Shown here one piece after another: positions 43,464-53,542 of a stretch of 53,542 nt of DNA. The notes under the pieces were generated by a model. That model made no database searches. It was given only the letters and a program-made list of their open reading frames with translations, and was not told the origin of the DNA. Source of the stretch: Geminicoccaceae bacterium (GTDB lineage Bacteria; Pseudomonadota; Alphaproteobacteria; Geminicoccales; Geminicoccaceae); assembly GCA_025054575.1 (NCBI GenBank), contig JANWZN010000005.1:1-53542 (forward strand). Direction: 5' to 3'. Numbering within the stretch: the stretch's first letter is position 1; each line of letters opens with the position of its first letter. Made by a program: the position numbers and the translations under genes.

Positions 43464-43982
43464 ATGACCAGAGTCGAGCGGCTGGGTGGGCCGAGCGACA
43501 CGGCCCGGTTGGAAGGGCGTGCCGCCATGCTGGTCCTCCTAGCCGCACTCGCCGCGTTGGCCACCGCGTTGGGGCTCGAGCATTGGGGTGGCTACGCGCC
43601 CTGCTCCCTTTGTGTGCTGGAGCGCTGGCCCTGGGTCGGGGCCAGCGTAGCTGCCGGCCTCGGGCTCCTCGTCGGGCGCGCGCGGCCGGCGCTGCTCGCG
43701 GCGGCGCTGCTACTGGCCGGCAACGCCGTCCTGTCGGCCTACCACGTCGGCGTCGAAAGCGGCTGGTTCGAGCTGCCCGGTACCTGTGCCGCCGGCGGCA
43801 GTGCCGCCACGATCGAGGAGCTTCGAGCCCAGCTCCTGGCCGCTCGTCCGACTTGCGATCGCGTAGCGCTGCGCGTGCTGGGCCTGTCGTTGGCCGCGTG
43901 GAACGGCATCGCCGCACTCGCCGTGGCCGCGGCGGCGGCTGCGGCGCTGCGTCTCGGCCGACGAGATCCGCTCAGCAGCTGA
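43464..43982 (+). CDS. dsbB: Disulfide bond formation protein DsbB
   Basis: A 172-residue membrane protein with four hydrophobic helices. APCSLCVLER has the CxxC in the first periplasmic loop next to the quinone-binding arginine, and a second pair of cysteines lies in the second loop (PGTCAAGG and PTCDRVA). It reoxidises DsbA with quinone. GGAGGG precedes the ATG. Its last 11 bases overlap the convergent Usp gene. Confidence 0.9.
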   Translation: MTRVERLGGPSDTARLEGRAAMLVLLAALAALATALGLEHWGGYAPCSLCVLERWPWVGASVAAGLGLLVGRARPALLAAALLLAGNAVLSAYHVGVESGWFELPGTCAAGGSAATIEELRAQLLAARPTCDRVALRVLGLSLAAWNGIAALAVAAAAAAALRLGRRDPLSS

Positions 43983-44790
43983 ACAACACCGCGCCCTGCG
44001 CATGCTGCAGGACGTGGCGGGTCGCACCGCCCAACACGAGCTGGCGCAGCCGCGCATGGCTGTAAATGCCCATGACCAGGAGATCGGCCCCGATCTCGCC
44101 CATCCGTGCCAGCAATTGGCCACCCGCATCGGCTTCCTCGGCGACGCGGTAACCCCGGGCCGCGACGCCGTGCCGCTCCAGCATGGCGACCGCATCCTCG
44201 AGGGTCTCGCCCGCCTCCGCGCCGATCGCCACGACCTCGACCTCGATCGCGGCCGCGAGCAGCGGTAGCGCGTCCTTGACGGCGCGCGCGGCTTCCTTCC
44301 GACCGTTCCAGCCGACGACGACCTTGCGGCCGAGATCCGCCGCGAAGCCCTCGGCAGGCACGAGCAGAACGGGACCGCCCGCCGACAGAGCGGTCTGCTC
44401 GATCGGCTGGAGGACGAGCGAGTCGAGCCCGCGGGCCTCGAACCGCGGCCCGATCGTGAGGTCGGCCGTGCGCGCGCTCTGCGCGAGCCGCTCGCCCGGA
44501 TCGCCCTCGAGATGCCGCCAGACCGCTCCCGAACCCGGCTCGCAAACCGACCGGAAGGTCGCTTCGAGGCGCTCGGCGACCGCTTTGGCCGCCTCGCGCT
44601 GCGCCTCGATGATTTCCGGGCCGACATAGGCCGCACCCTCGCCGTAGCCGACGGGTACGATCGGCGGCGGCGTGACGTGCACGGCGATCAGACGAGCACC
44701 GAACCGTTGGGCGAGTGCCAGGGCCGCGCGCAGGCGGGCGGCGTTACCTTCGTCGTCGACGAGCTGCAGAACGATGGTGCGGTAGCTCAT
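43972..44790 (-). CDS. Universal stress protein with two Usp domains
   Basis: A 272-residue protein with an N-terminal Usp domain (YRTIVLQLVDDEG, RLIAVHV) and a second one from about residue 150 (KVVVGWNGRKEAARAVKDALP to VMGIYSHARLRQLVLGGATR). In the second domain the ATP-loop GxxG is altered (GIYS), so nucleotide binding is uncertain. It follows the CDP-alcohol phosphatidyltransferase gene after 40 bases on the same strand. Confidence 0.88.
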   Translation of the reverse strand: MSYRTIVLQLVDDEGNAARLRAALALAQRFGARLIAVHVTPPPIVPVGYGEGAAYVGPEIIEAQREAAKAVAERLEATFRSVCEPGSGAVWRHLEGDPGERLAQSARTADLTIGPRFEARGLDSLVLQPIEQTALSAGGPVLLVPAEGFAADLGRKVVVGWNGRKEAARAVKDALPLLAAAIEVEVVAIGAEAGETLEDAVAMLERHGVAARGYRVAEEADAGGQLLARMGEIGADLLVMGIYSHARLRQLVLGGATRHVLQHAQGAVLFSC

Positions 44791-44830: not shown

Positions 44831-45436
44831 TCACCGTAGCAGCCGCCAGCCCGTGGCGATACGGCCGGCGGTCGTCAGCCAGCACATGCCAGCGAACACC
44901 CAGGCGAGCAGCGGGAAGTTCGTCGGAAAGAGACAGGCGAGAACGAAAAAGCCGATCGTCTCGCTACCCTCGGTCAGCCCACCCAGGTAGTAAAGGGATT
45001 TTTTCCCCCGTGCCTCGGTGGTGAGCCCGCGCCGGCCGGCCATCACGGCGAACGCCAGAAAGGAACTGCCGGTGCCCATGAAAGCGAACAGGAGGAAAGC
45101 CGCGGCGATCGCATTGGCTGCGGGATCGGCGAGCGCGAAGGCCCAGACCATGCCCGCGTAGACGATGAAGTCGAAGACGATGTCGAGAAAACCGCCGCGA
45201 TCGGTGAGCTTGGTGGCACGGGCGACCGCGCCGTCGAGCCCGTCGGCGAGGCGATTGACCAGACAGAGCACCAAACCGACCCAGACGAGGCCGCCCGCGA
45301 TCGCGGCGATCGCCGCGAGGCCGAACAGGAAGCCGACGATGCTGATCTGGTCGGCGCTCAGGCCCCGCCGGGCCAGCCCGTTGCCGACGACCTCGAGCGG
45401 GGGGTCGATCCATCGCCGCAGACGCGAATCGAGCAT
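44831..45436 (-). CDS. CDP-alcohol phosphatidyltransferase family protein
   Basis: A 201-residue membrane enzyme with the complete family motif DG-x2-DG-x2-AR-x8-G-x3-D-x3-D (from LADGLDGAVARA to GGFLDIVFDF). About six hydrophobic helices are visible. Relatives transfer a phosphatidyl group to small alcohols; the acceptor is unknown. It lies 30 bases after pssA, so two different CDP-alcohol transferases are encoded side by side. This suggests a lipid-head-group role alongside PE synthesis. Confidence 0.88.
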   Translation of the reverse strand: MLDSRLRRWIDPPLEVVGNGLARRGLSADQISIVGFLFGLAAIAAIAGGLVWVGLVLCLVNRLADGLDGAVARATKLTDRGGFLDIVFDFIVYAGMVWAFALADPAANAIAAAFLLFAFMGTGSSFLAFAVMAGRRGLTTEARGKKSLYYLGGLTEGSETIGFFVLACLFPTNFPLLAWVFAGMCWLTTAGRIATGWRLLR

Positions 45437-45466: not shown

Positions 45467-46363
45467 TCAGGACCGACCCTGGCGCGGCTCGAACGGCACG
45501 ATCCGATCCTTGGCCGACCCGCCGTTCGGGCCCACACCCGCGGCCGGCGTTTCGGTCGATTTCCCCGTACCGGGCGCCGTCGCGGTGACGGCTCCTGCGA
45601 CCGCTTCTTCCCGCCGCATCCGGAATGCCACGAAAACGGAGAAGGGGATCGACGCCAGATAGGCAAGCGCCAGGATCGAGAGCGTGAGCCACGGCTCTGT
45701 CACCAGAAAGGCCATCACCAGCCCAGCGATCGCGAGGGCCGGGACGATCTGCTCGGGCTCGAGCCGCAGCTTTTTGGCCGAGAAGGTCGGGACACGGCTC
45801 ACCATCAGCACGGCCACGGCGCCGAGGGTGAGCGCGTTCAGGGTGAAACTCTGCGACCAGCCCTGACCGAACGCGAACCAGGTGATCATCGGCGTGAGCG
45901 CGAGGCCTGCCGCCGCCGGTGCCGGCACGCCGGTGAAGAAATGTTGCATCCAGCGCGGCCGATGCGGATCCTCGGCCTCGGTGTTGAAGCGGGCGAGCCG
46001 AAGCGCGCAGCACACGGCGAACAACATCGCGACCGCCCAGCCGAGCCCGCGCATCGGCTGGAGCGCCCAAAAATAGACGAGCACAGCGGGTGCGACGCCG
46101 AAGTTGAAGAAGTCCGCCAAACTGTCGAGCTCGGCCCCGAGCCGGCTCTGAACGTTGAGGAGTCGTGCGGCGCGGCCGTCGAGCCCGTCGAGCACGGCGG
46201 CTGCGACGATCAGGGCCACGGCGAGCTCGTAGCGCCCATCGAGCCCGTACCGCAGCCCCGTGAGCCCGGCGCACAGGCTCAGGATCGTGAACAGGTTCGG
46301 CACCATGTGGAGGAGCGGCCGGCGCGTCCTCTGCCGCTGCCGCCGTCGGTTGCGCAACATCAT
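45467..46363 (-). CDS. pssA: CDP-diacylglycerol-serine O-phosphatidyltransferase (phosphatidylserine synthase)
   Basis: A 298-residue integral membrane enzyme. The motif DGLDGRAARLL followed by G-x3-D-x3-D (LGAELDSLADF) is intact, and HMVPNLFTILSLCAGLTGLR is the usual start of type II PssA. It makes phosphatidylserine, which Psd then decarboxylates to phosphatidylethanolamine. Its ATG overlaps the psd stop (ATGA). The C-terminal 45 residues are a Thr/Pro/Gly-rich tail. Confidence 0.93.
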   Translation of the reverse strand: MMLRNRRRQRQRTRRPLLHMVPNLFTILSLCAGLTGLRYGLDGRYELAVALIVAAAVLDGLDGRAARLLNVQSRLGAELDSLADFFNFGVAPAVLVYFWALQPMRGLGWAVAMLFAVCCALRLARFNTEAEDPHRPRWMQHFFTGVPAPAAAGLALTPMITWFAFGQGWSQSFTLNALTLGAVAVLMVSRVPTFSAKKLRLEPEQIVPALAIAGLVMAFLVTEPWLTLSILALAYLASIPFSVFVAFRMRREEAVAGAVTATAPGTGKSTETPAAGVGPNGGSAKDRIVPFEPRQGRS

Positions 46364-47064
46364 GTCACCCGTCCCCGCCGCGCGGCGCGCGGCCCGTCGA
46401 GCTCGGCGAGGACCGTCTCGCCGGCCAGCGTGCGTTGCCCGGGCAGCACGAGCGGCGTGGTGCCGTGAGGCAAATAGACGTCGCAGCGGCTGCCGAAGCG
46501 AATGAGTCCGACCCGATCTCCGGCGTCGAGCCGCGCGCCGGGCTCGACGAACGGCACGATCCGGCGGGCGACGAGCCCGGCGATCTGGACGAGCCCGATC
46601 CGCTCGCCGCGCGGTGTCTCGATCAGCCAAGAGAGCCGCTCGTTCTCGTCCGAGGCTTTGTCGAAGGAGGCGTTCAAAAACTTTCCGGAATGGTGAGATC
46701 GTTCGACGACCCGACCCGGTACGGGCGTCCGGTTCACGTGGACATCGAAGACGTTCATGAAGATTCCGATGCAGGGAAGGGGCTCGCCGCCCAGGCCGAG
46801 TTCGGGCGGTGGGCGCCGAGGGCCGATAGCGACGACGCGGCCATCGGCCGGGCTCACCACGATACGCGGGTCGTCCGGTGTCACCCGCGCGGGATCGCGG
46901 AAGAACCAAGCGCACCAGGCGGCGAGCAGGAGGCCCGGCCAAAAGAGCGGTGGCCAGAGCGCGCCGAGGCCGAGCGCGGCGAGCGCGAAGAAGGCCACGA
47001 ACTTCCAACCGTCCCGATGGATCGGCGGCACCAGACCGGGCAGGCGCTGCTCAGCCGCGACCAT
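46360..47064 (-). CDS. psd: Phosphatidylserine decarboxylase proenzyme (short type)
   Basis: A 234-residue proenzyme. VSPADGRVV, MNVFDVHVNRTPV and SGKFLNASFDKASDENER are diagnostic. The self-cleavage site is FGSRCDVYLP, where the Gly-Ser bond breaks and the Ser becomes the pyruvoyl group; this is the type common in Alphaproteobacteria. It has an N-terminal hydrophobic region. Its start overlaps the FkbM gene by 14 bases and its stop overlaps the pssA start. Confidence 0.95.
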   Translation of the reverse strand: MVAAEQRLPGLVPPIHRDGWKFVAFFALAALGLGALWPPLFWPGLLLAAWCAWFFRDPARVTPDDPRIVVSPADGRVVAIGPRRPPPELGLGGEPLPCIGIFMNVFDVHVNRTPVPGRVVERSHHSGKFLNASFDKASDENERLSWLIETPRGERIGLVQIAGLVARRIVPFVEPGARLDAGDRVGLIRFGSRCDVYLPHGTTPLVLPGQRTLAGETVLAELDGPRAARRGRVT

Positions 47065-47809
47065 TGCCGACCCCGATCTCGCGACGTTCCACCGCCTCCT
47101 CACGGAAAAACACGACGTCCATCTGCAGCTCGCGCGCGCTCCGCGGCTCGACATAGCCCGGCAGGAAGAGCCAGGGAACATAGCCGAACGAAGCCATGCG
47201 GTCGATCGTATCGCGCCAGCCCTTCTCGCCCTCGTAGAGGGGGACGAGCGAGAGTTCCAGCTGGACGCCCACGACCCGTGGCCAGAGCGTCGCGATGCCG
47301 TCGAGCACCGCGGCCTCGTAACCCTGGACGTCGAGCTTGACGAACACCCGCCGCCAGGGACCGGAAGCGAGAGGCTCGAGCTCGTCGAGGCGGACGACCG
47401 GGACCTCGATCGTGCGGACGGTTCGCGAGCTCGGCGAGAGGCGCGCGAGAAGAGCACTTTGCGGCAGGAGCGAGCTCATGTCCGGCTCGGCCGAGACTTC
47501 GAGGGGCGCGCGGCCGTTGGCCGGCCCGAGTGCGACCGCCGGGGCGACGTGCCAAGCCGGATCCCGCAGCGCCCGTGCGACCAGCCGTGCGTGCAGTTCG
47601 GGGATCGGCTCGACCGAGAGGATCGGGCCGCGCCAGCCGAGCTCCCGCAGCAGTGCTGCGTATTGCCCCTCGTTGGCACCGCCGTCCACCACGAGATCGA
47701 CCGCGAAGCGTTCGAGCGCGTTGACGAGCCGGCGCATCGGTTCGCGTGCCTTGGCGAGCGGAACGAGCTCGAACCCGAAGGCGCGGGCGAGCCGGCGCGC
47801 GAGCCTCAC
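47051..47809 (-). CDS. FkbM family methyltransferase
   Basis: A 252-residue SAM-dependent methyltransferase. LVVDGGANEGQYAALL (39-54) is the SAM-binding motif I, and VFVKLDVQGYEAAVLDG is the second characteristic motif. Members methylate sugars, polyketides or lipids; the acceptor here is unknown. It starts at a GTG overlapping the cyclase stop (GTGA) and overlaps psd by 14 bases. A methyltransferase between a cyclase and PE synthesis genes is unusual, and lipid head-group modification is conceivable but unproven. Confidence 0.85.
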   Translation of the reverse strand: MRLARRLARAFGFELVPLAKAREPMRRLVNALERFAVDLVVDGGANEGQYAALLRELGWRGPILSVEPIPELHARLVARALRDPAWHVAPAVALGPANGRAPLEVSAEPDMSSLLPQSALLARLSPSSRTVRTIEVPVVRLDELEPLASGPWRRVFVKLDVQGYEAAVLDGIATLWPRVVGVQLELSLVPLYEGEKGWRDTIDRMASFGYVPWLFLPGYVEPRSARELQMDVVFFREEAVERREIGVGNGRG

Positions 47810-49005
47810 CCCGCCTCCCGGAGCGCCACGACCTCGACCGGCTCGGCGATGCCCCGCAGCGGGAAGCGTCCGAGCGGCTCGAGGATCTCGCAGCCGCAGC
47901 CGCAGGAGGCGGCGAACGGACCCGAGAGCAGGACCTCGCGCCCGAGCTCCTTGGTGAGCTGCTGGAGCCGATCGGCGACATTGACCGCGGGGCCTATCAC
48001 GGTGAAGTCGAGACGCGCCGGCGTGCCGATATTGCCGTACATCACGTCGCCGACATGCAAGGCGAGGCCGAACCGCAAGGGCTCGAGCCCGTCGCGTCGG
48101 CGCTCGGCGTTGAGTGCGCGCATCCGCAGGCGGGCCTCGGCCGCGGCACGGAGCGCCCGTTGGCAGGCGGCCTCTTTTTCGAGTGGAAAGATCCCGAGCA
48201 TCCCGTCGCCGATGAACTTCAGGATCTCGCCGCCGTGCGCTTCGAGCGGCGCGGCCATCGTCTCGAAAAAGCGGTTGAGACCATCGAGAACGACGTCGCG
48301 AGGAAACCGCTCGGCGAAGGAGGTGAAGCCGCGCAGATCGCACTGCCAGATGGCAGCGCGCACCGTCGCACCGCTGCCGCGGCGGATCTCGCCCGCGAGG
48401 ATCCGTTCCCCGGCGTATCGCCCGACATAGGTATCGAGCAGCGTGCGGGCGATCCGCCGCGTGAGCCGGATTTCCGCCGCCATGGCGAGCATCGGCAGGA
48501 TCTCGCCTAGGGCATCGATATGCGCGCGGGTGAAGCCGCCGGCGCGCCGGGTCGCCCAGGTGACGGCGTGGCGGCTGCCGTCGGAAAAGCGCATCGGCAT
48601 GGCCAGATAGTCGCTCATGCCCTCCGCACGGAGCTCCGCATAGACCGGGTACGCGCTCGGTGCGGGAGTCGGCAGGTCGAGGCGCTGGCGGATCGCTTCC
48701 GCCCCTTCGAACAGCGCGCGCACCGGGCTGTGGGCATAGGCCGGATCGGCGGTCGACGCGTGCTCGAACAGTGCCAACTCGGCCCGCGGCATCCCCGGTC
48801 GCCACAGAAGGCGGGCGCCGAAGAACTGTGGATGCAAGGTCCGCAGCTGCACGGTCGAGCGGGCGAGCGGGATCCCGTCTTCCAGGAGCCGCTCGCAGGT
48901 GCGCGCGACCACATCCTCGAGGAACCGCTCGCAGCGGCTCTCGCGGGCGAGCCAGTCGAGCGCCCTCAGGTGCACGCTCGGCCAGGACGGTCCCTGCTCG
49001 CTCAC
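47806..49005 (-). CDS. Class III adenylate/guanylate cyclase
   Basis: A 399-residue cyclase. The catalytic domain occupies about 215-399: metal Asp223 (QCDLRGFTSF), KFIGDGMLGIF with Lys263 and second metal Asp267, LDFTVIG with Asp333, and Asn342/Arg346 (VNVADRL) for the transition state. Lys plus Asp favour ATP as substrate, so cAMP is the likely product. The N-terminal 200 residues form an uncharacterised sensory-type domain without membrane segments. The GTG at 49005 overlaps the stop of the cyclic-nucleotide-binding protein; longer starts would overlap it more. Confidence 0.9.
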   Translation of the reverse strand: MSEQGPSWPSVHLRALDWLARESRCERFLEDVVARTCERLLEDGIPLARSTVQLRTLHPQFFGARLLWRPGMPRAELALFEHASTADPAYAHSPVRALFEGAEAIRQRLDLPTPAPSAYPVYAELRAEGMSDYLAMPMRFSDGSRHAVTWATRRAGGFTRAHIDALGEILPMLAMAAEIRLTRRIARTLLDTYVGRYAGERILAGEIRRGSGATVRAAIWQCDLRGFTSFAERFPRDVVLDGLNRFFETMAAPLEAHGGEILKFIGDGMLGIFPLEKEAACQRALRAAAEARLRMRALNAERRRDGLEPLRFGLALHVGDVMYGNIGTPARLDFTVIGPAVNVADRLQQLTKELGREVLLSGPFAASCGCGCEILEPLGRFPLRGIAEPVEVVALREAG

Positions 49006-49475
49006 GGCCGCCTCGATTCGAGCTCGGCCAGCCGCAGCGACACCTGGGTGAGACGCTGCGTGGTCGCGTGCAGTCTCGCGGCGAGCTCGCTCATGATCTC
49101 CACCGCCACGTGGGGAAATTGGGTCACGAGGTTCAAAAAACCGTCCTTGGCGATTTTGAGGGTGTGCAGACGGGTCGCGGCGACGACCGTGGCCGTGCGC
49201 GGGACGTCGCACAGGATCGCGATCTCGCCCACGATCTCGTTCTTGCCGAGTGTCGCCACCTTGACGCGGCCCGACGGCGTGTCGACCAGGACATCGGCCG
49301 AGCCTTCGAGCAGGATATAGGCAGCATCGCCCGGCTCGCCCTGCCGGCAGACGATCTCGCCGGGCTCGTAATCGATGTGCTCGCTCGTGAACGCGAGGAG
49401 CTTCAGTCGCGCCGGCTCGACCTTGGCGAACAGCGGGATGGCGCGCAGGGCTTCGAGGTCGCGTTGCAGGCTCAT
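49002..49475 (-). CDS. Cyclic nucleotide-binding domain protein without DNA-binding domain
   Basis: A 157-residue single CNB domain. The phosphate-binding cassette reads VGEIAILCDVPRTATV, with the key Glu84 and Arg93 present, so it should bind cAMP or cGMP. After the domain only a helical stretch rich in Leu, Arg and Ala remains (about 120-157); there is no helix-turn-helix, so it is not a CRP-type regulator. GAGAGGAAA precedes the ATG. It lies between the defective ABC protein (11-base gap) and the cyclase (overlapping), suggesting that it is the receptor for the cyclase product. Confidence 0.9.
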   Translation of the reverse strand: MSLQRDLEALRAIPLFAKVEPARLKLLAFTSEHIDYEPGEIVCRQGEPGDAAYILLEGSADVLVDTPSGRVKVATLGKNEIVGEIAILCDVPRTATVVAATRLHTLKIAKDGFLNLVTQFPHVAVEIMSELAARLHATTQRLTQVSLRLAELESRRP

Positions 49476-49486
49476 GCGGTTTCCTC

Positions 49487-52135
49487 TCAGCTCGCAGCTT
49501 CGACGGCTGCCGCAGGCTCGTCCCCCGGTGCGGCGAGTTTTTCGTGACGGCCCCCGGTCAGGATACGGCCGCGCTCGACGACGACGACGTGCTCGAACCG
49601 GGCCGCCTCCGTTTCGTCCTCGAGCGACCAGACCACCGTCCGCCCGCGGAACTCCTCCAAGATCGCGTCGCGGACCGCGGCGCGATCGCCGGCGTCGAGC
49701 AGCGCGGTCGCCTCGTGCAGGATCAAAATGGGTGGCCGCCTTAAAATCTCGCGCGCGATCGCGAGCTTCTGCCGTTGCGGCTGCGACAGCCGGGCGCCGC
49801 CGATCCCGCATTCGGCCAGGAGCCCGATCTCGATCACCGCCTCTTTGAGCCCGTGCTCGGTGACGATTGCCGCCAGAACCGCGGCGACTTTCTGCGCCGC
49901 CTGTGCCTGCCCGTAGGCGACCTTGCCGAACAGGATGTTCTCCTGGACCGACGCGGCCGGATTGTAGTGTTCGGGGTCGAAGAAAGCCACCGCACCCACG
50001 AGGCTCGCCGGCAGCCTTTCGCGGAACCGTCGCCGCGCTTGGAGGATCCGCGCCTGCAGTCGCTCGTCGATGAGGCCGAGACGGTGGCGGGCGACCACGA
50101 GCTTGAAAGGGAGTTCCAACAGACGGTCGCGCTCGGCCTTGGTGAGCCGGTCCAACCGATCGATCGTGGCCCGCCCGAGGATCGTCTTGAACTCCGGCAG
50201 GTCTTCCGGTGCTATGAAGCTGAACTGACGAAAATACTCGTGATCCGGCGGCAGATCGGCGAACAGCTCGACCATGGTCTGGGCCACGCGGTAGCCGACC
50301 GTCTGCAGCTCCTCGACGAGACCGGTTTCGGCCAGGATCGAACGAACGAACGGATGAGCCGAGAGCTGATCCAGGTCGAAGACCGAACCGACCGGTCGGC
50401 CGAACAGCAGGTTTTCGGCCAGAGTCGCGTTGGTGTTGTAACGCTCCGGGTCGAACGGCTCGACCAGGCGGGCCAAGCGCTCTTCGCTGCGCAGCCGTTC
50501 CCGGATCGCCCGCCGGGCCGAGAGGATCCTGCTCGCGAGGTCGGCGCGCTCTGCGGGCAGCGAGCCGCGCAAGCCCAAGGTGTACACATCGTCGACCAGG
50601 CGCGCGATCGAGAGTGCTCGGATCATCGCCGGGAGCCGCTCGGCTGGATCGCGCACACCGGCGGCCTCCCAATCGACCCAGTCGGCGTCGATCTCGTCGG
50701 CGCTGTTACCCGAGGCGAGCGCCTCGCGGCGATTGCGCGCGCGCGCCGTCCGCAACGCGGCCGGCACCTCCGCCGGACGGATCGGTCGGCGCTTGAGGCC
50801 GTAGAGGAGGTTGTCGCGGATCGTTCCAGCGACGAGTGCCGCTTGTCCGCCCAGATAGGCGATGAGCGCGGCACGCCCCGGCTCGGAGAGCTCGTGCACT
50901 GCGCGATCGTCGACCAGCACGCGCCCGGTCGCGGGCTCCAAGAGCCCGGCCAAGAGGAGCGACAGCTCTTCGCGACCGCCCCCGGCCGGCCCGACCAGGG
51001 CGAGCCGCGTCGGCAACGCGAGGTCGAGGTGGATCTCGTCCAGAAGGATCTCGCCCGCTTCGTCACGCAGCGACACGCCGGCGACCCGCAGACGCCGGGG
51101 CGGGGCCGGTACCACGGTCGGTTCGCCGGTCAGGCGCTCGGCCGGCAGCAGGCCACTCGGGGCGAACTGGGCCACCGTCTGCTCGTACTTGACCCGTACA
51201 TCGTACATCGACTGGTAGTAGGTCAACAGCTCCTTCCACGGAGCGGAAAGATCTTTGTGCGCACCGACGACCGCTACCAGTGCGCCCAGTGTGATGTCAC
51301 CGTGGATGACCAGCCATCCGCCGATCGAAAAGAAAAAGAAAGGTCCAAGCTGTGCTATGAAATTGTTGAGAAACTTTATCATGAACTTTTTCTTGTAAAT
51401 CTCGAAGCGAATCCAGAAAACTGTCCCGAGTTGGTCCGAAAAACGGGCGAGCTCGAAGCGGGCGGTCCCATGAGAGTGGATCTCTCGAATCGTGGCACAG
51501 GTCTCGCTGATCCGTTCTGCATTGTAGCGAACCTGACGGACCCGCTTCTTGGCTAGCTGGTTCACTTGATATTGCAGCTTGGGGATCAAATAGATCTGAA
51601 TCGGGTAGAGTGCGATCGCGGCCAGCCCGAGGGTCGGATCCTGCATGAACATGAAGGCGAGGATCGTGAGCAACGTACCGCCCTGGAACGCCGGAACGGC
51701 AATGGCGTCGCCGACGAAGCCGCCGAGCGCTTCCGTCTCGGCGTTGATCATCTGCACGAGCTCGCCCTGGCTCACCTTGCGAAAGTGCGGCAGCGGGAAT
51801 CGCAGCACGTGCTCGTAGAGCTGGTAACGCAACCGTCGCAGCATCCGCTCGGCAACGATGCCGGCATACACGTTGAGAATGTACTTCAGGAGTCCGCCAA
51901 TGAGAACCAATAACAAGAACAGGCCGCACAGCGCGAAAAGATACTGTACGCGCTCCAGATCCCAGCCGAAGAGTTCCCAAGGTCCGTCCAGATTGCCCAG
52001 CGCCCGGTTTATGATCAACTTGGGAAGCTCTAGGGAGTAGTAGAGAGGCGGAAACGACAAGATGGTCAGGCCGAGAATCAGCAACTGCTGCCGCCAGCTG
52101 TACCGCAGGATGAATCGGAAGATCGAGGGTTCCAT
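49487..52135 (-). CDS. ABC-exporter-like protein with degenerate, expanded nucleotide-binding domain
   Basis: An 882-residue protein. Residues 1-320 are a type-1 exporter membrane domain with about six helices. The nucleotide-binding part starts near 350, but its motifs are broken: the Walker A position reads GPAGGGREE (Lys to Arg388, Ser/Thr to Glu389), the signature is LSQPQRQK, the Walker B Asp is His808 (ILILHEAT) and the H-loop His is missing (VVWSLEDE). The ENILFG-type segment after the Q-loop occurs three times: DNLLYG (441-446), ENLLFG (574-579) and ENILFG (732-737), the last two each following FDPExYN. It is presumably not an ATP-driven pump alone. The membrane half is more AT-rich than its surroundings. 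The cyclic-nucleotide genes follow directly. Confidence 0.85.
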   Translation of the reverse strand: MEPSIFRFILRYSWRQQLLILGLTILSFPPLYYSLELPKLIINRALGNLDGPWELFGWDLERVQYLFALCGLFLLLVLIGGLLKYILNVYAGIVAERMLRRLRYQLYEHVLRFPLPHFRKVSQGELVQMINAETEALGGFVGDAIAVPAFQGGTLLTILAFMFMQDPTLGLAAIALYPIQIYLIPKLQYQVNQLAKKRVRQVRYNAERISETCATIREIHSHGTARFELARFSDQLGTVFWIRFEIYKKKFMIKFLNNFIAQLGPFFFFSIGGWLVIHGDITLGALVAVVGAHKDLSAPWKELLTYYQSMYDVRVKYEQTVAQFAPSGLLPAERLTGEPTVVPAPPRRLRVAGVSLRDEAGEILLDEIHLDLALPTRLALVGPAGGGREELSLLLAGLLEPATGRVLVDDRAVHELSEPGRAALIAYLGGQAALVAGTIRDNLLYGLKRRPIRPAEVPAALRTARARNRREALASGNSADEIDADWVDWEAAGVRDPAERLPAMIRALSIARLVDDVYTLGLRGSLPAERADLASRILSARRAIRERLRSEERLARLVEPFDPERYNTNATLAENLLFGRPVGSVFDLDQLSAHPFVRSILAETGLVEELQTVGYRVAQTMVELFADLPPDHEYFRQFSFIAPEDLPEFKTILGRATIDRLDRLTKAERDRLLELPFKLVVARHRLGLIDERLQARILQARRRFRERLPASLVGAVAFFDPEHYNPAASVQENILFGKVAYGQAQAAQKVAAVLAAIVTEHGLKEAVIEIGLLAECGIGGARLSQPQRQKLAIAREILRRPPILILHEATALLDAGDRAAVRDAILEEFRGRTVVWSLEDETEAARFEHVVVVERGRILTGGRHEKLAAPGDEPAAAVEAAS

Positions 52136-52227: not shown

Positions 52228-53542
52228 TCAGGAGGAGGTTCCCGGCCGATTGCGCGACGCGAGCGCCCCCGGCAGGCGCAGCGTCGCCCGGAGTCCACCC
52301 TCCGGGCGGTTCGCGAGGGTCACGTCGCCGCCGTGTCCGCGTACGATGCCGCGGGCGATGGCGAGGCCGAGACCGACCCCGCCGGTTTCCGCCGAGCGAG
52401 AGGTCTCGAGCCGCACGAACGGTTCGAAGACTTCCTCGAGTTTCTCGGGGGGAATGCCGGGCCCGTCGTCGTCGACCGTCACCACCGCCTCGCCGCCCTC
52501 GCGGGCGAGGCTCACCCGCGCCCGCCGGCCGTAGGCGAGGGCGTTCTCGACCAGGTTGCGGATCGCCCGCTTGACCGCCGCCGGCCGAATCCGGGCGACC
52601 ACGGGCTCGCTGGCGACGAGCCGGGCGTCGCCGCCGAGCTCGGCCAGGTCCTCGACCACGCCCTCGACCAGGGCGGCCAGATCGACCTCGCGCACCGGCT
52701 CGCCCATCGCCTCGTCGCGGGCGAAGGCGAGGGTCGCCTCGACCATGCGCTGCATCTCCTCGAGGGTGGCGCAGATCCGCGCTCGTGCCTCCTCGTCGTC
52801 GAGCAGCTCGGCGCGCAGGCGGAGGCTCGTGATCGGCGTTCGCAGGTCGTGGCCGAGCGCGGCCAGCAGGCGCGTGCGATCGGCAATGAAGCGGCTGAGG
52901 CGATCCTGCATGCGATTGAAGGCCGCGATCGCCCGGCGGATCTCCTCGGGCCCCTGTTCGGGCAGCGGCCCGCCCGGCTCGCCGCGTCCGAGCAGCTCGG
53001 CAGCCTCGGCCAGGCCGACGAGGGGCCGCGTCGCCCGCCGGGTGCCGAGCAGCACAGCGAGCACCAACAGCGCGGCCAGCACGAGCAGCATCGCGATATA
53101 GGGCCGGGCGAAACCGGGTGGCGCCGGCGGCAGATCGCCCCGGGCGTTGAGCCAGCGGCCGTCGGGCAGCGCGATGGCGACCGCGGCGACGAGCCGGGAG
53201 CGGCGCCAGGGCGCACCGCCCGCCTCCTCCTCGTCCTCGCCCAGCCAATGGCGCTCGCGCGGAACCGGCTGTACCCGGACAGCCTGCGCCGCCGGCCCGA
53301 GCTCGCGGACCAGCCGCCGGGCGAGCGGATGGCGTTCCGCCCCGCCCTGCTCGGCCACGGCCGGCTCGCGGTCGAGCGAGAGGGCGAGCGGCCGGCCGGC
53401 GAGGGCTGCGAGGATCGCCGGGTGGCTGCTCGCGGGGGTCGTGGCCAGCACGCGAACGAGCGGCACGAGCTGCTCGACCAGCCGCTCGCCGCGCACGCGC
53501 TCGAAGGCGAACCGCCGCTCGTCGGCGAAGATCATGAAGGCG
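52228..53542 (-). CDS. Sensor histidine kinase (EnvZ-like), N-terminus cut by window edge
   Basis: At least 437 residues are visible; the frame is open to the right edge and the first membrane helix is missing, so the gene continues beyond. A membrane helix lies at about residues 146-163 (numbered from an internal Met at 53535), followed by a HAMP region and the H-box GHDLRTPITSLRLRAELL with His229. NLVENALAYG, VDDDGPGIPPEK and GVGLGLAIARGIV are the N, G1 and G2 boxes. Most likely the response regulator is encoded upstream, outside the window. The ABC-like gene begins 92 bases after its stop. Confidence 0.92.
   Translation of the reverse strand, partial: AFMIFADERRFAFERVRGERLVEQLVPLVRVLATTPASSHPAILAALAGRPLALSLDREPAVAEQGGAERHPLARRLVRELGPAAQAVRVQPVPRERHWLGEDEEEAGGAPWRRSRLVAAVAIALPDGRWLNARGDLPPAPPGFARPYIAMLLVLAALLVLAVLLGTRRATRPLVGLAEAAELLGRGEPGGPLPEQGPEEIRRAIAAFNRMQDRLSRFIADRTRLLAALGHDLRTPITSLRLRAELLDDEEARARICATLEEMQRMVEATLAFARDEAMGEPVREVDLAALVEGVVEDLAELGGDARLVASEPVVARIRPAAVKRAIRNLVENALAYGRRARVSLAREGGEAVVTVDDDGPGIPPEKLEEVFEPFVRLETSRSAETGGVGLGLAIARGIVRGHGGDVTLANRPEGGLRATLRLPGALASRNRPGTSS

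Follow-up and report, generated by a model that had tools for sequence, protein, structure and literature searches.

The described systems closest to the locus reported here are the type IV half-exporters of the ATP-binding cassette (ABC) type (MsbA, Sav1866 and IrtAB), SUR and CFTR, in which an ABC fold is used as a regulator or gate, the bacteriocin-transport-associated family TIGR03896, by its name a cyclic-nucleotide-binding domain tied to export systems, and Pycsar, in which a pyrimidine cyclase is combined with a TIR or transmembrane effector in a defence context. The locus lies in a 53,542-nucleotide stretch (the window) of Geminicoccaceae bacterium (GenBank assembly GCA_025054575.1, contig JANWZN010000005.1, positions 1 to 53,542 of the forward strand). 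It encodes, on the minus strand, an ABC-exporter-fold membrane protein that has lost its ATPase motifs and that we call ABCL (882 aa, 49487..52135), a stand-alone cyclic-nucleotide-binding protein, CNB (157 aa, 49002..49475), and a class III nucleotidyl cyclase (399 aa, 47806..49005). Like the half-exporters, ABCL has a transmembrane domain and a nucleotide-binding domain (NBD) fold, together spanning residues 2-874, but its family has lost the ATPase motifs (all four patterns in 109 of 130 loci), carries about 290 extra NBD residues and has a CNB partner or fusion. SUR2 chains were among the fold matches of ABCL; unlike in SUR and CFTR, the receptor here is a CNB, either separate or fused, and most members have lost all four motif patterns. 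The window CNB matched TIGR03896 at 38.3 bits, far under the cut-off of 161.05, and we know of no cyclase or dead ABC protein described for that family. We put at about one half the probability that ABCL is a membrane component of surface-polysaccharide production that responds to a cyclic nucleotide and probably works without ATP.

ABCL matched the Pfam families ABC_membrane (PF00664, 80.8 bits, residues 68-289) and ABC_tran (47.2 bits). An AlphaFold model made with 33 family members had a pLDDT of 83.3 and a pTM of 0.79, with low confidence in two parts of the transmembrane model (residues 155-174 and 288-297). The transmembrane domain (residues ~1-325, 51161..52135, minus strand) was modelled as long helices. 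When the model was compared with solved structures using VIA-align, residues 2-874 aligned on half-exporters with Z of about 27, including IrtB (9g2k_B, 419 residues aligned, root-mean-square deviation (rmsd) 3.9) and Sav1866 (2hyd_A, 435 residues, rmsd 3.8). The NBD of Streptococcus mutans ComA (3vx4_D) aligned over 235 of its 240 residues across ABCL residues 342-874 (49514..51112, minus strand; rmsd 2.5, Z 27.7), so that in the model the nucleotide-binding fold is present but degenerate, interrupted by an insert and stretched over 533 residues.

The preliminary description, made from the sequence alone, had called this protein a defective ABC-like protein, and the motifs agreed: the window ABCL has arginine in place of the Walker A lysine, LSQPQ for LSGGQ, HE for the Walker B DE and leucine at the H-loop position. 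We extended this to 130 non-redundant ABCL loci, made up of 53 loci (L073-L125), a further 80 (L133-L212) and the window, minus four duplicates. The 80 were the best of at least 497 matches, so the set leans towards close relatives; 22 of the 130 loci are known Geminicoccaceae, and family was not established for most of L133-L212 within the remaining 108. Seven transmembrane-only or partial relatives (L126-L132, including L130 at 850 aa) were left out, as were matches that were short or contained stops, for example L036 and L037. None of the four ATPase motif patterns was found in 109 loci, one in 21 and two or more in none. By pattern, GxxxxGK[ST] was kept in 9 loci, the LSGG[QE] type in 1, the Walker B DE in 1 and the H-loop in 10. 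Lysine stood at the aligned Walker A position in 61 loci, followed by serine or threonine in just 11 of these. As a control, four exporters of the window's own genome kept all four patterns. ABCL is a widespread proteobacterial family with a type IV exporter fold and without the ATPase motifs, occurring also, beyond the Alphaproteobacteria, in several metagenome-assembled genomes (MAGs) titled Beta- or Gammaproteobacteria. Judging from the motifs, ATPase activity has probably been lost. ABCL probably dimerises.

The intact NBD fold in the model would also be expected of a working ABC exporter. ABCL could then be an ATPase with unusual motifs, or could pair with a second half-exporter that provides a good ATP site; heterodimers of this kind, in which one of the sites is degenerate, are well known among ABC exporters (PMC7756269, in its available portion). 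A Walker A pattern survives in the 9 loci given above and D814 is kept in 120 of 130. The signature pattern was kept in a single locus and no protein kept two patterns. A canonical partner needs ABCL's signature for one composite site and ABCL's Walker A and Walker B for the other; because both the Walker and the signature motifs are lost, a heterodimer half is hard to reconcile with this family. The intact ABC ATPase scanned in neighbouring clusters was of the oligopeptide-importer type, although some clusters were unannotated and no search was made for a partner encoded elsewhere. A working exporter is in our view unlikely. A transmembrane-only relative of ABCL (31% identity) was also found elsewhere in the window's genome (C221:11453-12346; L002, L129), and similar ones in three other genomes, G280, G357 and G361 (L126-L128). 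CNB was not found near these four (L126-L129).

The NBD fold is enlarged by about 290 family-specific residues. The region, cut as residues 450-728 (49952..50788, minus strand) of a stretch at ~450-728 that is conserved in the family, has no counterpart in the ABC structures with which ABCL was aligned. ABCL contains the segment N-[LIV]-L-[FY]-G three times, at residues 442, 575 and 733, with the second copy inside the insert. Comparison of these copies using hhalign gave a probability of 98.0 (E 1.7e-13) for copies 2 and 3 and of 89.6 (E 1.9e-6) for copies 1 and 3, and copies 1 and 2 gave a 22-column match alone (probability 84.6). On these profile comparisons the insert is in part a copy of ABCL's own Q-loop/helical segment. 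Modelled separately, the insert had a pLDDT of 91.7. The sensible row among its fold comparisons was the helical part of the IrtAB NBD (71 residues, rmsd 2.6, Z 4.4), which agrees with a duplication, and Foldseek returned no match with E < 0.001. Assignment of the insert to a known domain was rejected, as Pfam gave stray weak matches only and there was one PDB sequence match (E 0.14); such weak or missing matches are no proof of a new fold. Used as a marker for ABCL, the insert profile had matches in 59 of the 190 class genomes searched, as a single copy in 57 of these 59, and 58 of its 62 matches lay in open frames of 876-1080 codons.

Neighbouring genes were compared as conserved open frames, with no gene caller and with starts and small genes unsure, in flanks of up to ~7 kb upstream and ~9.5 kb downstream of ABCL. 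A CNB gene lay on the same strand within 1 kb downstream of ABCL in 108 of the 130 loci (L122, a probable fusion, was counted here as adjacent) and in 12 formed an in-frame fusion at the ABCL C-terminus. Eight loci had no CNB beside ABCL, and in two the contig ended. On an ABCL tree made with FastTree, where changes of state are minimum numbers, the fused and separate states changed at least three times. Fusions annotated as single genes were found on named plasmids of Azospirillum sp. B510 (1047 aa, CNB at 884-1018) and Ruegeria sp. B32 (1026 aa, CNB at 869-1009). In the unfused form, CNB and ABCL probably make physical contact.

The separate CNB (PF00027, 78.3 bits in the window) is no more than a receptor domain, ~150 residues long, with the forms read spanning 140-162 aa. 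Its phosphate-binding cassette in the window reads GEIAILCDVPRTA, and the best solved relatives of the family profile include PKA regulatory subunits. A strict cassette pattern (GE..R[ST]A type, excluding GEM) was kept in 101 of 120 CNBs and a looser pattern admitting GEM in 108. That CNB might be a transcription factor was considered and rejected: PF00027 was the sole Pfam match at E 0.01, with no DNA-binding domain, and the Crp/Fnr C-terminal helix-turn-helix domain was not found in the window CNB using Pfam. The Sinorhizobium meliloti CNB, named a Crp/Fnr regulator by NCBI, is 154 aa long and the family profile covers residues 1-151. The motif loss in ABCL and the missing DNA-binding domain of CNB make the names 'ABC transporter ATP-binding protein' and 'Crp/Fnr family transcriptional regulator' doubtful for these proteins. 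When 58 genomes of the class were searched with the CNB profile, 19 had a match, comprising 17 that bear ABCL, a weak match in G436, and G450. In G450 a glycosyltransferase gene of the type called GTa below and a CNB gene stand divergently side by side (C76:808-2717) with no ABCL found, by natural loss or an assembly fault.

Class III cyclase genes were present in the examined flanks of 41 of the 130 loci, and cyclase adjacency needs a minimum of 13 changes on the ABCL tree. Three or more cyclase architectures were seen: the window type (PF00211, 35.5 bits; also L101), a Fer2-cyclase, and others without a second Pfam domain (L098, L185 and L209). The Fer2-cyclases lie close downstream of ABCL-CNB (L112:3176-4477, L114:6864-8144 and L125:6558-7787), and the 2Fe-2S ferredoxin domain ahead of the catalytic domain suggests a redox-sensing input. 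By alignment the window cyclase has the adenylate-type residues D223, D267, K263, D333, N342 and R346, which we take to be the two metal-binding aspartates, the lysine/aspartate specificity pair and the transition-state asparagine and arginine. The metal-binding aspartates were kept in 40 and 39 of the 41 nearby cyclases. From these residues, cyclic AMP (cAMP) is the probable signal and ligand in the window's lineage. The whole window genome had seven cyclase matches in 3.5 Mb. The preliminary description had proposed that the cyclase product, the CNB receptor and a membrane protein unable to use ATP act together, and as a unit these three were supported by a CNB that is fused or lies at most 1 kb away in 120 of 130 loci, by the cyclases in the flanks and by the variety of cyclase architectures.

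Five loci carry an Apyc1-family gene 43-121 bases upstream of the fused form (98.5-103.0 bits, cut-off 50); Apyc1 presumably degrades cyclic nucleotides. Other MBL-fold hydrolases occur near ABCL-CNB in 14 loci (including L098, L105, L117, L196, L201 and L209). The L105 copy scored 40.1 bits against a cyclic-nucleotide phosphodiesterase model with a cut-off of 400 and may be an unrecognised phosphodiesterase. The broader assignment of all MBL genes near CNB as phosphodiesterases was rejected, as the L105 and L196 types match general MBL Pfam families only.

The Apyc1 genes, together with the shared pairing of a cyclase and a CNB-type receptor, raise the alternative that the locus is a Pycsar-like anti-phage system in which infection triggers cyclic nucleotide synthesis and CNB or the membrane protein is the effector. 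A PycC model of PADLOC matched the cyclase at 80.8 bits and, with a different part, CNB at 40.7 bits, and CNB also matched the PycTIR effector model (55.4 bits). However, none of these matches extends beyond the cyclase and CNB domains that the two systems share, and the window cyclase has adenylate-type specificity residues. The membrane partner here has an ABC fold, and the broad distribution of ABCL (the 59 of 190 genomes, mostly as a single copy, with conserved neighbours and glycan gene co-occurrence) is unlike that of patchy defence genes. An anti-phage role is extremely improbable on this evidence.

The common neighbourhood of ABCL is a divergent glycan operon ending in Yej-like importer genes. 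Its main gene clusters, counted over the 130 loci, were the glycosyltransferases GTa (63 loci), GTb (57) and GTc (54), a histidine phosphatase (37), a deacetylase-like gene (37) and GTd, in clusters of 30 and 18. The 'deacetylase' label comes from the NCBI annotation of a Mesorhizobium plasmid copy at the matching place, and Pfam gave no match to either of the deacetylase-like copies scanned. Among the 190 genomes ABCL and GTa occurred together in 56, ABCL only in 3 (G464, G487 and G575), GTa only in 1 (G450) and neither in 130 (phi 0.95, Fisher p 2.7e-43, uncorrected for kinship). Of 60 near relatives, 31 had both, 2 ABCL only, 1 GTa only and 26 neither. In 37 of the 56 genomes with both genes these lay within 10 kb, in 6 on the same contig at 39 kb to 1.16 Mb, and in 13 on separate contigs. 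In the window's genome GTa, GTc, GTb, the phosphatase, GTd, the deacetylase-like gene and a yejF match stand in the same order on contig C373, unlinked to ABCL, and in Geminicoccaceae the module is mostly unlinked from the glycan operon. The recurrent partner of ABCL is this glycosyltransferase operon, not the lipid genes. Beside CNB, a methyltransferase of ~164 aa occurs in 35 of 130 loci (including L168:12230-12721; PF12692 in the copy scanned), and FkbM methyltransferases hold a similar place in the window's family and in S. meliloti.

GTa is divergent from ABCL and within 1 kb of it in 47 of 130 loci, an arrangement that would also fit a passive role, with the ABCL-CNB pair as a scaffold or assembly factor for membrane glycosyltransferases and nucleotide binding structural or vestigial. 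Cassette conservation is incomplete: 19 of 120 CNBs miss the strict pattern and 12 the looser one, the latter including 4 of the 12 fused proteins (L108, L110, L121 and L123). Most CNBs (the 101 above) nevertheless keep the cassette, and cyclase or Apyc1-type genes recur nearby. We consider a passive scaffold quite unlikely.

The preliminary description had instead inferred that cyclase, CNB and ABCL control phosphatidylethanolamine synthesis and membrane lipid composition. In the window the genes overlap through psd (phosphatidylserine decarboxylase) and pssA (CDP-diacylglycerol-serine O-phosphatidyltransferase), and ABCL shares its fold with exporters, among them MsbA, which exports lipids. 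We surveyed the 130 loci using the window's proteins as queries. The genes psd, pssA and the CDP-alcohol transferase were each found near ABCL in 11 loci, all among the 22 Geminicoccaceae, and the window-type FkbM gene in 16, again all among these 22; none of these four genes was near ABCL in the other 108. FkbM proteins too distant for this query search do occur elsewhere, for example in S. meliloti. Half of the Geminicoccaceae loci (11 of 22) thus have psd and pssA near ABCL and 11 were without them, some on short contigs. L090-L092 hold CNB, the cyclase, FkbM and the CDP-alcohol transferase with no psd or pssA seen. Sharing an operon with housekeeping genes is common. In the neighbour comparison that had been proposed, CNB, and in 41 loci a cyclase, recurs by ABCL, but psd and pssA were near ABCL in none of the 108 loci outside the set of known family members. 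The lipid link is a local arrangement, control of lipid composition is not supported as a general function of ABCL, and we judge it very unlikely as an explanation of the module.

On S. meliloti pSymB the ABCL locus reads, in its first half, a deacetylase-like gene, DUF3095, a nucleotide-sugar dehydrogenase, a cyclase and Yej-like ABC genes, followed by GTa (50% identity), GTc (51%), GTd (42%), a methyltransferase, ABCL, CNB, FkbM and LacI. Judged by gene content and order, this appears to be the published phazolicin-protecting polysaccharide (PPP) cluster. According to the available portions of the two papers, nine genes between smb21252 and smb21271 are needed for an uncharacterised surface polysaccharide (PMC10128002) and SMb21257 is a truncated adenylate cyclase (PMC12542648). 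From gene order between these anchors, ABCL, CNB and FkbM would lie near smb21269-smb21271; smb terms gave no match in PMC7268258. The accessible text of PMC10128002 treats the cluster as one for polysaccharide synthesis and makes no mention of a dead ABC protein with a CNB receptor. This pSymB locus and the window have in common ABCL, CNB and a cyclase only, and the window FkbM gave no tblastn match to the S. meliloti pSymB locus at E 1e-8. Elsewhere in S. meliloti, cAMP and Clr act on other polysaccharide genes (PMC5498481, available portion).

Motif loss, the exporter fold of the model, CNB adjacency and fusion, cyclase proximity and operon co-occurrence were observed computationally, and the following mechanism is proposed from them. 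ABCL would be a catalytically dead half-exporter that has kept the exporter fold and lost ATP hydrolysis. It would answer a cyclic nucleotide through CNB, whether CNB is encoded alongside or forms the C-terminal end of the same protein. The source of the nucleotide (cAMP in the window's lineage) would be the class III cyclase of the same run or, in several lineages, one encoded nearby. Loaded CNB would act on the NBD-like half, perhaps via the insert, and so shift the membrane part into another state. What ABCL serves would most likely be production or export of a surface polysaccharide by the conserved operon (GTa-GTc-GTb-phosphatase-GTd-deacetylase-like gene-Yej-like importer), which almost every genome with ABCL also carries. 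Control would thus run from nucleotide to membrane protein, and any transport would probably be ATP-independent. A more specific version is possible but tentative, and we hold it to be less probable than the general role: an ABC exporter may have swapped ATP for a second messenger, with the dead NBD, enlarged by copies of its helical segment, serving as a docking platform for CNB, so that cAMP from a dedicated cyclase controls, by gating or switching, a conduit or complex in the membrane that takes part in assembling surface polysaccharide, with a SUR/CFTR-like logic.

Several observations weigh against a cyclic-nucleotide-responsive role of ABCL in polysaccharide production. In 89 of the 130 loci, 71 of them with more than 5 kb downstream and 18 with less, the flanks showed no cyclase. 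All six adenylate-type residues were present in 19 of the 41 cyclases, all Geminicoccaceae (the window and 18 others), so that cAMP is well supported only in the window's family and the nucleotide may differ elsewhere. The eight loci with adequate flanks and no nearby CNB are L124 and seven MAGs; six of the eight bear Gammaproteobacteria titles, and L200 has a CNB 6.1 kb away. No CNB was found by L130, outside the 130. The fused forms L108, L110, L121, L123 and that of Ruegeria are without glycosyltransferase neighbours, and the ABCL-GTa co-occurrence, uncorrected for kinship, shows neither direction nor mechanism. In S. meliloti the smb numbers of ABCL and CNB come from gene order, and the nine PPP genes are not named singly in the accessible text of PMC10128002. 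In the deposited S. meliloti 1021 sequence the ABCL frame is broken (L227:18001-20713, 224 codons to the first stop) and the local cyclase is split over two frames; ABCL is intact, at 903 aa, in S. meliloti 2011 and R14. The PPP phenotypes were measured in 1021 (PMC10128002, available portion). The break is either a sequencing error or a real mutation and bears on the transposon sequencing (Tn-seq) in 1021; if it is real, PPP is made in that strain without intact ABCL. The same portion of PMC10128002 reports that an isolated cyaA mutant changed phazolicin resistance only slightly; cyaA is smc00339, distinct from the local pSymB cyclase. Our literature search found no experiment on ABCL or on the CNB of the ABCL family and, by title and start of abstract, no paper on the ABC-CNB-cyclase combination, with most subscription papers outside its reach.

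If the polysaccharide role of ABCL is correct, a second messenger would have a way to act on a membrane protein of the envelope that bypasses transcription, both in about a third of the class genomes sampled (59 of 190) and in nitrogen-fixing symbionts. Proteins that now carry the transporter and regulator names quoted above would gain a function, cyclic-nucleotide control of rhizobial surface polysaccharides would become testable, and the family would be a clear example from bacteria of an ABC fold retained for regulation once ATPase function was lost.

Coordinates in the window confirmed the seven genes on a single strand (minus) that had been described, and Pfam agreed with the gene names. 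After ABCL, CNB and the cyclase these are an FkbM-family methyltransferase (47051..47809; PF05050 59.6 bits, TIGR01444 73.8 bits, cut-off 37.7), psd (46360..47064; PF02666 156 bits, NF003679 290.6 bits, cut-off 252), pssA (45467..46363; TIGR00473 110.3 bits, cut-off 107; scanned from 46366, one codon ahead of the ATG at 46363) and a second CDP-alcohol phosphatidyltransferase (44831..45436; PF01066 28.8 bits, NF040950 58.2 bits, under the cut-off of 180). Both psd and pssA passed the equivalog cut-offs of NCBIfam. The overlaps were as described, with 4 bases for CNB/cyclase, 4 for cyclase/FkbM, 14 for FkbM/psd and 4 for psd/pssA, the last being ATGA at 46363-46360; ABCL and CNB are separated by 11 bases, and pssA and the CDP-alcohol transferase by the 30 bases reported. 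The range given for the run, 45467-52135, holds for the first six genes and leaves the seventh outside. The arrangement is not confined to this genome and recurs in relatives: all 20 family relatives fetched have CNB after ABCL, and 19 have the cyclase too, the sole relative without one (L087) having a contig that ends 4.3 kb downstream.

The run may be longer than seven genes, with flanking genes of the same strand at both ends. A universal stress protein gene (43972..44790, minus strand; PF00582 44.2 bits), possibly the last of the run, lies 40 bases downstream of the CDP-alcohol transferase gene and is near ABCL in 10 of the 22 Geminicoccaceae loci. Upstream of ABCL by 92 bases is a gene for an EnvZ-like sensor histidine kinase (52228..53535, minus strand; HATPase_c 90.7 bits, best NCBIfam match EnvZ, below cut-off). 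This kinase gene is a local neighbour, adjoining ABCL in five of five fetched loci of the same genus, and is a possible extra input.

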